Shown here: positions 49 to 5,130 of the stretch, piece after piece
Layout of the letters: the number at the start of each line of letters is the position of its first letter
How positions within the stretch are numbered: the first letter of the stretch is position 1
From: Nitrospiraceae bacterium
Lineage (GTDB): Bacteria > Nitrospirota > Nitrospiria > Nitrospirales > UBA2166
DNA: 5,130 nucleotides
Direction: 5' to 3'
Assembly: GCA_002726235.1 (NCBI GenBank)
Contig: PBSN01000010.1
Coordinates: forward strand, 2,181 to 7,310
Translations under genes and position numbers: made by a program
The notes under the pieces: generated by a model
The model's input: only the letters and a program-made list of their open reading frames with translations
Databases searched by the model: none
What the model was told of the DNA's origin: nothing

Positions 49-1656
49 ATGGTGACCTTGAGTATCACTCCGCGTGGACTAAGGGAAATCGAAGCCCAAA
101 CTCTACATCCCGATCAGCCTCAACCGCCCCGCACAGCAATACAGAACGCTGGCAGAATATTCAGGCTTCATGTATCCGCGCAGAACATCCACACAGCACA
201 CGATATCCCAGCCAACGGATACTGTGCATACGGAACCCTCCATCGATTGCACATGCTCATGACCAGCAAACGACCTACAGCCACCTATTGGGAGCTCGAC
301 TTCCGGCGACCAGAGCACAGGACCTACGCAGGACAGTGGCTCAGCAACCTACTTCGAGACGTGCTCCTCCACCCTAGCTGTGACCAAACCACCATCGTCA
401 AGCTACAACATGCTCTCACAGCCATGACCAGCAGGCATCAACACACATACACCACCCCGGACGACATTCGTCACTGGTTATCTGTCCGCGAAATGCACTG
501 GCTCGCCACATTCTTCACCCCCACAACCACATGGGCCACTGATGGAGAATCAATCAGCATTGTTGGCATACCCAGCGACCCCCACGCGTACGGCCCTGCG
601 TGGACGTCAGACGAACTCCGTGAAGCCATACTTCTGAATCTCCCTCACATAGTCCTGCACAACGCACACTTCTACATCATCAACCCTGCCGGCCTCGCCA
701 TCAACCTTGACAACGCTCTACTCAACCTTGAACCACACATTCAAGTGCGTGAACCCAGCGTTCAGCGCGACGTCCCGCCCATTAATGCACGCCCACAACA
801 TCCCACCAGCCCCGTAGCCACACCCACATGCCCTCCTGCGCCTTCAGAGACCACAGTGGCCGACATCATACCATCACCAGACACCATAAACTCCTCCCCC
901 CACAATTCTACATCTAGGCCACGGAAAACTCCCCGGACAAAAGGCAACCGGACCCCCACACTCCCCACCAGGACACAGCCCCCTCGTAAAGCCCGACACG
1001 CCCAGTCCTATGCAGACCTCCCTGACACAGTCCCTACACATACATTATACTGTCCACACGTGCCCTTCCGCACCTTACTCCAAGCAGCGAATCCACCCCA
1101 ACCGCTCACATGGGACCCTACACTCAAATATAAAGTCCTGATGGGCCTAGCAGACACCCTGCCCAAAGGAAATGCCTTATACGCCGGAGAGCAGATCCCG
1201 GCCCATGCCATCATTTCCGAGTGCACTGGCCAAAGACTCTCTATCCTGGAAGCCCGGTCCACGGAGCGTTCCTCCGACTATCTCGTCCAAGACACACAAG
1301 GAACATTCGTAATAGACGCCAGGGACAGGAAAAGCAAACGCATACTTTGCGCAGCCGGATACATCAACGACCCGCTACAGGCCAATGCCGCCAACGTAGA
1401 GTTCTACACAAAAACGGGACGGATATACATACGAGCATTACGCAAAATCAACCCCCACGAAGAACTCCTCGTCAACTACGGGTACCAGTATTGGGAAGAC
1501 CAAAAGTGGTCGACAGAGAGATCCTCCTCCAAGCAAGAGCGGCGTATGCCGAAGATATTGCGCTCCGAGAGCAGGAATGGCACACCTTACTCTCCCAAAA
1601 GCAGTCGCCACCACGGCAGACCCTCACCCTCCCCGAACCTTCGCGCAGTCCATTAA
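49..1656 (+). CDS. N-terminal retrotransposon protein with OTU-like and SET domains
   Basis: This is a 535-residue frame. Residues about 41-212 resemble an OTU cysteine protease, about 240-330 are a Pro/Thr/Ser-rich linker with a basic patch, and about 361-482 are a SET methyltransferase domain ending in NYGYQYW. The ATG at 49 has G at -3 and G at +4, a good eukaryotic start context. However, frame 1 has no stop between base 1 and 49, so the true start may lie upstream of the window. The last 50 or so residues, after YQYWEDQ, are Ser/Arg-rich and probably not native. Over the same bases frame 3 reads a helical, coding-like stretch that leads into the endonuclease. I infer that the stop at 1654-1656 is a product of a frameshift near 1500, and that this region was originally the N-terminus of one long polyprotein. 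It could instead be a genuine ORF1 followed by an overlapping ORF2. Confidence 0.8.
   Translation: MVTLSITPRGLREIEAQTLHPDQPQPPRTAIQNAGRIFRLHVSAQNIHTAHDIPANGYCAYGTLHRLHMLMTSKRPTATYWELDFRRPEHRTYAGQWLSNLLRDVLLHPSCDQTTIVKLQHALTAMTSRHQHTYTTPDDIRHWLSVREMHWLATFFTPTTTWATDGESISIVGIPSDPHAYGPAWTSDELREAILLNLPHIVLHNAHFYIINPAGLAINLDNALLNLEPHIQVREPSVQRDVPPINARPQHPTSPVATPTCPPAPSETTVADIIPSPDTINSSPHNSTSRPRKTPRTKGNRTPTLPTRTQPPRKARHAQSYADLPDTVPTHTLYCPHVPFRTLLQAANPPQPLTWDPTLKYKVLMGLADTLPKGNALYAGEQIPAHAIISECTGQRLSILEARSTERSSDYLVQDTQGTFVIDARDRKSKRILCAAGYINDPLQANAANVEFYTKTGRIYIRALRKINPHEELLVNYGYQYWEDQKWSTERSSSKQERRMPKILRSESRNGTPYSPKSSRHHGRPSPSPNLRAVH
169..684 (+). other. OTU-like cysteine protease-type domain (residues ~41-212)
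   Basis: The motif HDIPANGYCAYGTL (residues 51-64) has the form of the OTU catalytic loop (D-x-P-x-[GN]-x-C followed by a small/aromatic helix), with C59 as candidate nucleophile. Downstream, W143 and the helix VREMHWLATFF match the usual OTU pattern in which a Trp precedes an E..aLA..f helix. A strand ISIVGI follows. The end of the domain, HNAHFYII, places H207 where OTU enzymes carry their general-base His before an aromatic residue. OTU enzymes cleave ubiquitin or polyprotein links, and OTU-like domains are known in several LINE and viral polyproteins. Here the role could be polyprotein processing or deubiquitination, which is inference. The match is to motif order and spacing only, and another papain-like fold is possible. 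Confidence 0.5.
766..1038 (+). other. Pro/Thr/Ser-rich linker with basic patch
   Basis: Residues about 240-330 of the first frame are dominated by Pro, Thr and Ser. Around residues 289-315 there is a cluster of Arg and Lys (SRPRKTPRTKGNR, then PPRKARH). The stretch has no clear secondary structure and looks like a disordered hinge between the OTU-like and SET domains. The basic part could bind nucleic acid or act as a nuclear localisation signal, which is inference. No CCHC zinc knuckle is present here. Confidence 0.55.
1129..1494 (+). other. SET domain, protein-lysine methyltransferase type (residues ~361-482)
   Basis: The domain starts with LPKGNALYAGEQIPAHAIIS (370-389), which matches the SET N-motif G.glfA...I..g..I.e. 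CTGQRLS follows, the usual 'y.G..i' turn. AAGYINDPLQANAANVEF (435-452) corresponds to the cofactor and pseudoknot motif R.INHs..pN, with IND in place of INH. The end, RALRKINPHEELLVNYGYQYW (462-482), matches the I..GEEL..dYG..YW block, with Y477 in the place of the catalytic Tyr. SET domains transfer methyl groups from S-adenosylmethionine to lysines, mainly of histones. No pre-SET or post-SET cysteine cluster is visible. Being inside a retrotransposon it could mark or read chromatin at insertion sites, which is inference. The fold call is firm; activity is not shown. Confidence 0.85.
1495..1530 (+). other. Frameshift 1: SET frame (1) to endonuclease frame (3)
   Basis: Frame 1 loses protein-like character after YQYWEDQ. 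Frame 3 begins a plausible helix at VVDREILLQARAAYAED from about 1506 and stays coding through the endonuclease. Two simple repairs work: one A added to AAAA at 1502-1505, giving WEDQKVVDREILLQ, or AG removed from AGAGAG at 1515-1520, giving WSTEILLQARA. No canonical X_XXY_YYZ slippery heptamer is present in frame 1 here. Confidence 0.65.
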
Positions 1657-2228
1657 CACACGCCACACATTTCAAATTCTCAACGTGGAACGTCAATGGC
1701 AACCCTTCCAGCAACCCCGGAAAAATAGAGGCCATACTCCACTACTTTCGCTCTCAAAGTCTAGATTGCCTTTACCTCCTCGACGTACGGCTCTCACAAA
1801 GACAAGCAGCCTACCTAGACGACTATATACAGGACCAGATCCCAGGGGTTCTCGTATGCCGCTTTCTTAACACGAAACCGAAGCTCGGACCCACTGACCC
1901 ACACATGGGGGGCGCCCTCGCGGTGATAAGTGAAACATGGAAAGGGCGCATCCGATATACCAATTCTGACTGTACGGGCCTCGGCCTCATATCTCGCATC
2001 GAATTTCACACTGGCAGACCAGACATCGACGACCGACTCACCATAATAGGAGCATACCTACCCCCTAAACCTGCGACTGCTGGCCCGTGCACACTGTGGA
2101 CACATCACTACGAGCCTTTGGAAGAGCGACGCCCAAAAATGGTGCCTCACGACCGTATTCCATCCTCACGAACATCCTTACAAAATGGATTGTTAAAGCC
2201 AGGGCCAACGGCCACACAGTCCTTGTAG
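1500..2228 (+). CDS. APE-type endonuclease, N-terminal part (frame 3)
   Basis: The LINE endonuclease nicks target DNA to prime reverse transcription. After a helical lead-in (1506-1600) and a Pro-rich spacer, the domain opens at about 1668 with FKFSTWNVNG; Asn at 1689-1691 corresponds to the catalytic Asn of the APE fold. CLYLLDVRL follows, where Asp (1782-1784) stands at the usual metal-binding Glu. Next come GGALAVIS, GLGLISRIEF and LTIIGAYLPP, the last carrying the conserved Tyr-x-Pro motif. LINE-like sequence ends at GPCTLWT (about 2100); the remainder to the TAG at 2226-2228 is out of frame. There is no ATG in this frame near the domain, the nearest upstream being at 1221 within SET coding. 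This suggests translation as a continuation of the upstream frame, not from its own start. The second half of the domain lies in the next frame. Confidence 0.8.
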   Translation, partial: PKVVDREILLQARAAYAEDIALREQEWHTLLSQKQSPPRQTLTLPEPSRSPLTHATHFKFSTWNVNGNPSSNPGKIEAILHYFRSQSLDCLYLLDVRLSQRQAAYLDDYIQDQIPGVLVCRFLNTKPKLGPTDPHMGGALAVISETWKGRIRYTNSDCTGLGLISRIEFHTGRPDIDDRLTIIGAYLPPKPATAGPCTLWTHHYEPLEERRPKMVPHDRIPSSRTSLQNGLLKPGPTATQSL

Positions 2229-4429
2229 GCGGTGACTTCAATGCCTCTCTCGAGGGCCATGCTGGAAAGCGAGACCTACGTGGAATAGCAACATCCCTCC
2301 AACTTACAGCCCCTCTTATACAGACCCTAAACACTGAGGACCCGTACTTCACCTTCTTCCGGAAAGACCGCGGAATCTCCAGAATAGACCACATTCTACA
2401 TACACCTCTTCCCACATACATACAAATTTCTGGCAACGGGTGCTACACCTCGGACGCCCTCACGGCAGCAACTTTTGACCACAGACCGGTCTGGACCGAC
2501 CTCTGCATCAGTGGAACAGGACCCCCCCTGCCGAAGGAGCAACACCTTCAGATCCCGCCAAGGCTTAACATCAATCCCGCCGATCAGGAAATGGTGGAGG
2601 AATACCAACAGCATCTCAGCACACATCATCAATCCCTCCCGGAGCCCTCGGAACACCCACACCCTGCCGACCGCGCCGCCACCAAACTAGCACTAATCCA
2701 TCGCATCACCATCGACGCGGCTCACGACACACGTAGCGCAGATAGAACGAAGAAAACACGCATTCACCACCTCTGCCAACGCAAACGTTCCCGCTTCAAA
2801 GACGGCTTTTCTGCGGAAATGAGAGTTATTCAAACAGCACTCCACTTAGTCATCTACCTAAAGAGAAAGTTTTTCAACAGAGCCGGCTATCTCCACCCTC
2901 ATGTAGATGACACACGTCTCTACAGTCTTACACGAAGAGGCCTCCAGCGATGGGAGGTCACCATAGCCGCCCTGGACCACGCTTCAGAGGACCCATCCCA
3001 CCCACCCACCACCATCATCAAGCCTGCCGTGGATCCACGCCAGATGCTGACATGGACTGTTGCGACCATCAATAGCACACACTTTGACACCCTACGGGAT
3101 AACCTTACCCGAATGCTCCAAGGAAGAGCAAGAACAGAAATGCGGAAGCGTATGACCCACAGGACCCACACCATCCAAGCCCACCTGGAACTCCAACACA
3201 TCGGAAAAGTCCTTCAGACAATAGGATTGAAGCGCAAACAGACGCCACCCCTCACCCGACTCACCCTAGAGGACGGAGCCACCCTAACCCTCCCCATAGA
3301 CATACAGGACGAGCTGAACAAACATTTCACAGCCCACCACTCCATCCCATCCGGACTTGACCCAGTCGCCCACAAGCTACATCATGACGACACCTGGTGG
3401 CACGAGCTCGCAGCTGGCGCCGACATGAACACACCCTTGCATCCACACTCCGCCATTCCCGATCACCACCAGCTCGGCCTACGAAACCTATGCAAAACAA
3501 AGGTTACCTCCGCCACAGCTAAAAAGATCCAAGACGCTCTACGACAGCAGATCACAATAAGCGAGTTCCACTCCACTCTGGACGGGATGGCCAAGGATAA
3601 AGCGCCCGGACCATCCATGGTCACCACCAACATGATAAAGAAATGGACCCCTGAAATAAAGATTGAAGTTTTAGGCCTCCTCCAAACCCTCTGGACCCAT
3701 CGCCATGTGCCACGCTGGTGGAGAGACAGAGTCATGACGCCACTTCTTAAAAAACCAGGACACACGTCTCTAAAGAACCTCCGACCGATAGGGCTCCTAG
3801 AGGTTTTGCGCAAACTAATGACCCGTATCATCACCCACCGGCTCCTCCACATATGGGAAGAAGATGAAGTCCTACACCCTGCGCAACACGGCTATCGATG
3901 GCGACACGGCACGGACACGGCCATTCTACGAGTCCTCGCGGCCACGGAACTGGCCAAACTTACCGGGCATGTGAAACTCTGCACCTTCTGGGACTTTCAA
4001 AAGGCCTTCGACTCCATCGCACCCAATCTTCTCAAATTAGCATGGGCAAGACTTGGTGTCCCCGATGACACGATCAAATGGCTAAGCGACCTCGACGATG
4101 GGGGTCGCACCTTCATCTGGACCCCACACATGGCCGACAACATCGATCCCCGATCACTCGAAGAACTGCTTGGCTCAGATGGCTCCTTTATCCAGCACCC
4201 TGACATGGGATTCTCCGCGGAGAGAGGGGTCACACAAGGTGGAACTGAATCCACAGTTGCATGGATCGTCATCTTTGACATGATCCTATGCTGGTCTGAC
4301 CTACATGATGATATAGCCAAGATGAGGCGTACGCAGATGACCTCTCCCAAATCACAACTTCCATTGAGGCCACTCAGCTCAAGGCCGACAAACTCTCATC
4401 CTTCTGCGCCTTCTCCGGAATGCAACTAA
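2087..4429 (+). CDS. Endonuclease C-terminal part plus reverse transcriptase, through motif B
   Basis: The frame is open from 2069; the GTG at 2087 is not a believable start, and translation would have to come from the frame upstream. Residues counted from 2087: the endonuclease is completed by VLVGGDFNAS (D50, N52), ISRIDHIL (D101) and FDHRPVW (D131, H132), the catalytic Asp and His blocks. A 370-residue linker rich in His, Arg and Lys follows, probably RNA-binding. RT blocks then appear in order: DKAPGPS (504-510); RVMTPLLKKP and NLRPIGLLEVLRKL; HPAQHGYR; motif A LCTFWDFQKAFDS with catalytic D636; and motif B GFSAERGVTQGG (713-719). LINE-like sequence ends at FDMILCWSDLHDD; the tail to the TAA at 4427-4429 is out of frame. 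The YADD motif is missing from this frame and present in the next, so this piece alone would be an inactive RT. Confidence 0.9.
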   Translation: MHTVDTSLRAFGRATPKNGASRPYSILTNILTKWIVKARANGHTVLVGGDFNASLEGHAGKRDLRGIATSLQLTAPLIQTLNTEDPYFTFFRKDRGISRIDHILHTPLPTYIQISGNGCYTSDALTAATFDHRPVWTDLCISGTGPPLPKEQHLQIPPRLNINPADQEMVEEYQQHLSTHHQSLPEPSEHPHPADRAATKLALIHRITIDAAHDTRSADRTKKTRIHHLCQRKRSRFKDGFSAEMRVIQTALHLVIYLKRKFFNRAGYLHPHVDDTRLYSLTRRGLQRWEVTIAALDHASEDPSHPPTTIIKPAVDPRQMLTWTVATINSTHFDTLRDNLTRMLQGRARTEMRKRMTHRTHTIQAHLELQHIGKVLQTIGLKRKQTPPLTRLTLEDGATLTLPIDIQDELNKHFTAHHSIPSGLDPVAHKLHHDDTWWHELAAGADMNTPLHPHSAIPDHHQLGLRNLCKTKVTSATAKKIQDALRQQITISEFHSTLDGMAKDKAPGPSMVTTNMIKKWTPEIKIEVLGLLQTLWTHRHVPRWWRDRVMTPLLKKPGHTSLKNLRPIGLLEVLRKLMTRIITHRLLHIWEEDEVLHPAQHGYRWRHGTDTAILRVLAATELAKLTGHVKLCTFWDFQKAFDSIAPNLLKLAWARLGVPDDTIKWLSDLDDGGRTFIWTPHMADNIDPRSLEELLGSDGSFIQHPDMGFSAERGVTQGGTESTVAWIVIFDMILCWSDLHDDIAKMRRTQMTSPKSQLPLRPLSSRPTNSHPSAPSPECN
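2096..2112 (+). other. Frameshift 2: within the endonuclease, frame 3 to frame 2
   Basis: Frame 3 reads GPCTLWT up to about 2102. Frame 2 reads SLRAFGRATPKNGASRPYSI from about 2105, a normal continuation for LINE endonucleases after 'tLW'. Removing one AC from ACAC at 2100-2103 restores a seamless LWTSLRAF. Frame 2 is open only from 2069 and frame 3 closes at 2228, which bounds the site. A single lost base would also restore frame. Confidence 0.75.
3580..4341 (+). other. Reverse transcriptase catalytic core (finger and palm blocks to YADD)
   Basis: The core runs from MAKDKAPGPS to AYADDL and spans two frames. Catalytic aspartates are the motif A Asp at 3992-3994 and the Asp pair at 4336-4341. 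Motif A to B spacing (about 78 residues) is normal. Motif B reads RGVTQGGTEST, with GG..ST where many LINEs have G..SP. Motif B to C spacing is short at about 29 residues, and the frame break falls in that gap. Confidence 0.88.
4309..4327 (+). other. Frameshift 3: between RT motifs B and C, frame 2 to frame 1
   Basis: Frame 1 has a TGA at 4309-4311, so the join must come after it. By 4327 frame 1 must already be in use to give AYADDL. Within this gap of under 20 bases, removing AT from ATAT at 4311-4314 gives HDDSQDEAYADDL. A small deletion of a number of bases not divisible by three is also possible, since the loop before YADD is short. No slippery heptamer is seen. Confidence 0.8.
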
Positions 4430-4986
4430 ACATCCCCAAAACTGAATGCATTGCCCTGGGAGCCCCATTTGCGGTGACGGCCATGTTAGAATCAAACCCA
4501 CACATCATCATAAGAGACTGGAACTGGTGCCCACACCCCATCCCCATCCGAACAACCACCAATTCCACCAAGTATCTCGGCGTACAACTTCCATTCTCAG
4601 TAAAGGACACCGACTCCCACAGCTGGTGCACCACCTACATAGCCACATCCACGGCAGTTCTACGATCCAAATGCGCGACACCTGACTGCAAGCTACTCGT
4701 CCTCAACACACAAATACTCCCGACCCTACTATACAAGGCCACCAAAGCATCCTGGACATACGCTAAATACATCGCCATAGACAAACTACTCGCGCAGGCC
4801 GCTAGGAAAATACTCCGTCTCCCCCCTGGATATCCCACGGATCTTATCTACCTTCCCCCGAAATACAAAGGGCTTGGACTGCGCAAATTTTCAACCCACG
4901 CCCAGACTCAGAAATGGCATACTCTTCAACGAGCCCTCACACTCGGAGGACAGCCCAGAGTGCGACCTGGGCATAAAACCTGGTGA
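4312..4986 (+). CDS. Reverse transcriptase C-terminal part: YADD motif and thumb (frame 1)
   Basis: Frame 1 opens after the TGA at 4309-4311 and reads YSQDEAYADDLSQI, with the catalytic YADD at 4330-4341. Further blocks are typical of LINEs: KADKLSSFCAFSGMQLNIPKTE (motif D region, whose Met is the ATG at 4420), STKYLGVQL (block 7, Tyr at 4573), LPTLLYKATKASW, and the thumb sequence KLLAQAARKILRLPPGYP followed by YLPPKYKGLGLRKF. The product ends at GGQPRVRPGHKTW before the TGA at 4984-4986. Nothing recognisable as RNase H or a Cys/His finger follows. The protein either ends naturally here or was cut by loss of the 3' part. Starting translation at the ATG at 4420 would omit YADD, so independent expression would give no functional RT. 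This is best read as the continuation of the upstream frame. Confidence 0.85.
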   Translation, partial: YSQDEAYADDLSQITTSIEATQLKADKLSSFCAFSGMQLNIPKTECIALGAPFAVTAMLESNPHIIIRDWNWCPHPIPIRTTTNSTKYLGVQLPFSVKDTDSHSWCTTYIATSTAVLRSKCATPDCKLLVLNTQILPTLLYKATKASWTYAKYIAIDKLLAQAARKILRLPPGYPTDLIYLPPKYKGLGLRKFSTHAQTQKWHTLQRALTLGGQPRVRPGHKTW

Positions 4987-5002
4987 ACGGTCGAAACCTG
5001 GG
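4964..5002 (+). repeat. Short ACCTGG repeats across the 3' end of the coding region
   Basis: GACCTGGG (4964-4971), AAACCTGG (4976-4983) and AAACCTGGG (4994-5002) form three imperfect direct copies around the stop codon, just before the change to AT-rich sequence. LINE 3' ends often carry short tandem repeats, but three copies of a 6-base core can also arise by chance. Confidence 0.35.
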
Positions 5003-5130
5003 AAAATTTTACAAATGATACTGCTAACTAAAATTAGACAGCGTTTTGTTTAAACTAGTGTAGTAGGTATTGCATTGATGCATTTTTAATGCATTTTGAT
5101 TATATTTTAAAGTCATTAGAGTGGTTATAA
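4987..5130. other. AT-rich, gene-free 3' UTR or host flank
   Basis: These last 144 bases are markedly AT-rich and lack the C-rich bias of everything before them. No reading frame of note, poly(A) run or AATAAA signal is seen. It may be the element's 3' UTR or the genomic DNA it inserted into. Confidence 0.6.
5071..5097. repeat. TGCATT short repeats
   Basis: TGCATT occurs at 5071, 5079 and 5090, the last two inside identical 9-mers ATGCATTTT (5078-5086 and 5089-5097, 11 bases apart). The core ATGCAT is its own reverse complement. It could be a minor tandem duplication or simple AT-rich drift; no function is evident. Confidence 0.4.

Follow-up and report, generated by a model that had tools for sequence, protein, structure and literature searches.

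Does the SET domain that stands just before the endonuclease of a retrotransposon in this stretch of DNA belong to the element, or did a LINE merely come to lie beside a foreign gene, and what could such a domain do there? The window, as the whole analysed stretch of 5,130 nucleotides is called here, corresponds to bases 2181-7310, that is the final 5130 bases, of the 7310-base contig PBSN01000010.1 (C10). This contig is part of a bacterial genome bin of 1.87 Mb and 27 contigs whose own 16S gene is bacterial. C10 itself is of eukaryotic and not of bacterial origin, since it encodes a LINE and since other small contigs of the bin also look like eukaryotic retroelements. The finding therefore bears on a eukaryote that lives together with the bacterium or was sequenced along with it. 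In the same bin, C11 and C24 (L009 and L022) resemble by eye Copia-type polyproteins, and C5 and C9 (L006 and L008) hold long repetitive open frames with the look of eukaryotic retroelements; despite these contigs, the bin was scored just 0.49% contaminated. Upstream of the window, positions 661-2180 of C10 (L002) belong to a stretch with ambiguous bases, eight single Ns being found within the first 2180 bases and zero beyond, and these are perhaps polymorphic positions of a multi-copy repeat. Only one copy of the element was found in the bin.

All features of the element lie on the forward strand. The frame that encodes the SET domain (frame 1) is already open before the window begins and spans 688 codons in the contig. 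Its N-terminal part (1-1128), the second half of which is rich in proline, threonine and histidine, gave no family match in Pfam and PDB sequence searches, and its codon usage is like that of the SET and reverse transcriptase (RT) parts (r 0.72-0.75). In all parts of the element C-ending codons are preferred, with a correlation of 0.76 between the SET and RT parts vs 0.54 and 0.40 in the wrong frames. Two stretches of the N-terminal part, at 202-249 (DIPANGYCAYGTLHRL) and 658-684 (HNAHFYIIN), look like the Cys motif and the His motif of OTU proteases, enzymes known from other mobile elements, and a peptide similar to this OTU-like stretch, GRGFCSVAA, occurs further upstream in the contig (about 1485-1510 of L002). 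An OTU protease had thus been suspected by eye; it found no Pfam or PDB support and was set aside.

The preliminary description had reported a well-formed SET domain with an N-motif and an INDP..N motif, and this was confirmed at 1129-1509 in frame 1, where Pfam PF00856 is matched over its full length (model positions 1-105; 42.7 bits against a cut-off of 22.4; E 8.5e-11). A second, related Pfam family, PRDM2_PR, also matches there (E 1.9e-7), and an independent profile, for which 70 viral SET domains were the sole input, detects the domain with an E-value of 9e-27. The motifs could be located as PKGNALYAGE within 1138-1191, YINDPL..ANVEF at 1360-1404 and ELLVNYGYQYW at 1462-1494. The tyrosine of the Tyr-Gly pair and two asparagines are present, while the GxG motif reads GNA and the NHS motif reads ND. 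A tyrosine named Tyr477 in the preliminary description is most likely the one whose codon starts at base 1477 (codon 493 counting from base 1). The SET fold was modelled, as had been proposed there, from a 6-sequence alignment, and the result is of moderate confidence (mean pLDDT 53, pTM 0.52); in fold comparison the 50 PDB matches listed were all SET or PR domains, with SETD8 first. A 2-sequence model was poor (pLDDT 37) and was replaced by this one, and a 12-sequence SET alignment was visibly misaligned and dropped.

The viral profile was supplied by 73 IMG/VR contigs (L029-L101) that carry the SET motif EE[LIMV]x[VI]xYGxxYW, many of them as short free-standing SET proteins; no LINE protein was matched in any of these loci. 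Several of the viral domains show an AND..NN variant of the NHS motif, akin to the ND of the window.

Downstream of the SET domain, a linker of about 58 codons (1495-1667) contains a shift from frame 1 to frame 3 near 1500, frame 1 ending at 1654 and frame 3 being open from 1134 to 2225. It leads to an APE-type endonuclease (1668-2494, frame 3 and then frame 2) recognized by its motifs, by Pfam Exo_endo_phos (E 2.5e-6, on the C-terminal half) and by alignment to the endonuclease of a second element described below. The metal-binding and catalytic motifs are present: TWNVNGN within 1668-1703, LLDVRLS at 1776-1796, GAYLPP at 2049-2066, GGDFNA at 2228-2245, SRIDHIL at 2378-2398 and DHRPVW at 2477-2494. 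The glutamate of the usual QExxL is replaced by aspartate (LLDVRL). An aspartate is likewise seen in the second element (LLIDTR, protein residue 755), and glutamate in most LINE endonucleases.

The RT core extends over about 3600-4344, in frame 2 and then in frame 1 from about 4320. It matches RVT_1 (E 1.3e-11) and has its YADD at 4330-4344, and the closest solved structures by sequence are R2 (1.5e-8) and human LINE-1 ORF2p (1.8e-7). The element has a LINE-type RT with an APE-type endonuclease N-terminal to it, as expected of an APE-type LINE. The thumb and C-terminal region follows at 4345-4986 (RVT_1 tail match, E 0.0013) with a stop codon at 4984-4986, and an AT-rich tail (4987-5130), either 3' untranslated region or flanking host DNA, reaches the contig end. 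G+C falls sharply from 52% to 29% right behind the stop codon (4984-4990).

The frame breaks of this copy were left unmended for the analysis. The earlier claim that an APE-type endonuclease follows the SET domain within about 60 codons, across one frame break and without a start codon of its own, holds for this junction, where no start codon is needed. Besides this break, which had been listed there, the copy has two others, one within the endonuclease (about 2067-2118) and one just before the YADD (about 4315-4330). With three breaks the window copy looks broken, via decay or assembly error.

A relative of the element was found with a codon pattern for the RT motif A of this clade, applied to a collection with one genome per species for 84,980 bacterial and archaeal species (genome_contigs). 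Three contigs matched, and one of them, CANJPX010000144.1 (L026; 5424 bases, from the bin 'Bacteroidetes bacterium RH-23may17-678'), shares 24% identity with the window element across 759 residues of endonuclease and RT (E 6e-41). L026 is a single stop-free frame of 1807 codons, open at both ends, and has the same domain order, SET, endonuclease and RT, without any break. Its SET domain is divergent: the viral SET profile finds it with a single-target E-value of 4.4e-6, the best of 200 shuffles reaching 0.017, and the Pfam SET match is full length and sub-threshold (E 0.17 with 24,736 models searched, which corresponds to about 7e-6 for a single model). Aligned pairwise and on their own, the two SET domains show weak similarity, with a score of 50 vs 35.8 for shuffled sequences (s.d. 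4.5), 5/300 shuffles being as good. The C-terminal YG..Y(C)W.D.KW is common to both, and several core residues (two asparagines, Tyr-Gly and the C-terminal Y/W) are kept between elements of about 24% identity. L026 departs further from the canonical motifs, with GKR for GxG and NE for NHS, and its linker between SET and endonuclease counts about 275 codons vs about 58 in the window element.

Other searches yielded no additional relative. Exact peptides of the RT, the endonuclease and the N-terminal and SET parts had no match in viral contigs, and neither did those of the RT in genome contigs. In viral contigs no match was obtained with RT patterns, with the two-element alignment of the window and L026, or with an alignment whose second row was modelled on related RTs and which served only to loosen the patterns, not as evidence. 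Finally, whole-genome searches of 395 genomes from the bin's phylum and of about 800 genomes from the phylum, class, order and family of L026's bin gave no further copy.

The central claim of the preliminary description, a LINE with its own SET domain, is thus supported by a second member of the same RT clade with SET, endonuclease and RT in one frame, which is also the kind of continuous copy that it had advised searching for. The frame break between SET and endonuclease, and the contig itself, which comes from a mixed bin and has eight single Ns upstream, might raise the suspicion of a chimera or of a LINE that landed in or next to a host SET gene. Yet codon usage is continuous, and an unrelated data set shows the same order without a frame break in L026, which led us to reject this reading; we regard it as very improbable. 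A unique host SET gene beside the LINE, named at the outset as the case that would speak against the claim, is likewise unlikely, since the distant L026 has a SET domain in the same position. Two independent captures of SET at the same place are less likely, and because two elements so far apart both keep the domain there, it appears to be an old, functional part of the protein.

What this function is can be read in several ways. The preliminary description had suggested histone modification at or near the target, shielding of new copies from silencing, or methylation of the element's own protein as roles that the domain could have. The domain may be real and kept in the LINE protein and act on the element's own protein or RNP, by self-methylation or on a host cofactor, and not on histones; its place inside an endonuclease-RT polyprotein agrees with this, as do similar SET domains in viral contigs, which are mostly short free-standing proteins and some of which may come from phages, whose hosts are without histones. 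However, we know of no self-methylating LINE, and histones are the substrate of most studied eukaryotic SET domains, so that we consider this reading rather unlikely. It is also conceivable that the fold has been retained for binding DNA, RNA or a histone tail, or for a structural purpose, without methyltransferase activity. Such a non-catalytic role has a place among the readings because the GxG and NHS motifs are changed in both elements, more so in L026, but two elements of 24% identity still have the tyrosine of YG, both asparagines and the C-terminal Y/W in common, and the ND variant is common among the viral SET domains found here; we hold it to be improbable.

Several known systems come close to this arrangement. 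SETMAR, a primate fusion of SET and mariner, is reportedly a single host gene derived from a DNA transposon; it is similar in having SET joined to a transposon protein and differs in being a host gene, not the cargo of a retrotransposon. SET genes are already reported in another kind of mobile element, since an ORF with a SET domain is part of proto-Helentron-Pi from Phytophthora infestans (PMC4067079), and Helentrons also have an APE-type endonuclease and an OTU protease. In contrast to the window element, in which SET is joined to endonuclease and RT, a Helentron is a rolling-circle DNA transposon with Rep/helicase and its SET is a separate ORF; no Rep/helicase match was obtained in the window frames scanned, an RT being present instead. 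LINE proteins with gained enzymatic domains are also known, as a Ulp1-like protease can be present in the nematode LINEs NeSL and Utopia and RNase H occurs in several LINE clades (PMC4640811). The Ulp1-carrying LINEs have a restriction-like endonuclease, and no SET domain is reported in that study. Next to the Helentron with its SET gene, the nearest precedent is SymbioLINE-Dnmt of Symbiodinium, LINE retrotransposons with a cytosine methyltransferase in ORF1 (PMC5890265). Both are LINEs with an epigenetic methyltransferase, but in SymbioLINE-Dnmt a separate ORF1 encodes a DNA methyltransferase, and in the window element and L026 a SET domain shares its frame with endonuclease and RT. No Pfam match to DNA_methylase was found in the frames scanned, and the element may begin upstream of the contig's 5' end. 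The full-text literature searched, which lies outside Repbase and most subscription papers, contains no LINE with a SET domain, and an earlier description is possible.

Taken together, the architecture of SET, endonuclease and RT is in itself highly probable. In the reading that we favour, the window element would be one copy of a eukaryotic APE-type LINE whose polyprotein has a SET lysine-methyltransferase domain directly ahead of the endonuclease. As known from the biology of LINEs, the endonuclease would nick the target and target-primed reverse transcription would follow. Beside the nick, the tethered SET domain may then act on histones or chromatin proteins by methylating their lysines, which would either suit integration or determine the chromatin state that the new copy takes on. 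That a LINE clade keeps a SET domain in its polyprotein for methylating histones or chromatin proteins at the insertion site is about evenly balanced between true and false. The matches to the SET, endonuclease and RT families, the existence of L026, the correlation of codon usage between SET and RT (r 0.76) and the precedent of a LINE with a chromatin-type methyltransferase in SymbioLINE-Dnmt (PMC5890265) argue for it. Against it stand the three frame breaks of the window copy, the small number of elements known here, two, the much different linker lengths and the altered motifs (GNA and GKR for GxG, ND and NE for NHS), which make activity uncertain.

LINEs are usually regarded as targets of histone methylation. 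This view would be reversed by a LINE whose target-cutting and copying protein includes a SET domain, and the question would arise whether a retrotransposon can set the chromatin state of its own insertion. Such an element may be seen as the protein-methylating counterpart of the dinoflagellate LINEs with a DNA methyltransferase, a parallel which suggests that the capture of epigenetic writers by retrotransposons may recur. It is a tentative proposal, somewhat more doubtful than not, that in aquatic protists a LINE clade has for a long time retained a histone lysine methyltransferase of its own within the endonuclease-RT protein and marks chromatin with it where and when it inserts. If true, this would be the first known case of a retrotransposon that delivers a histone-modifying enzyme to the site it targets.
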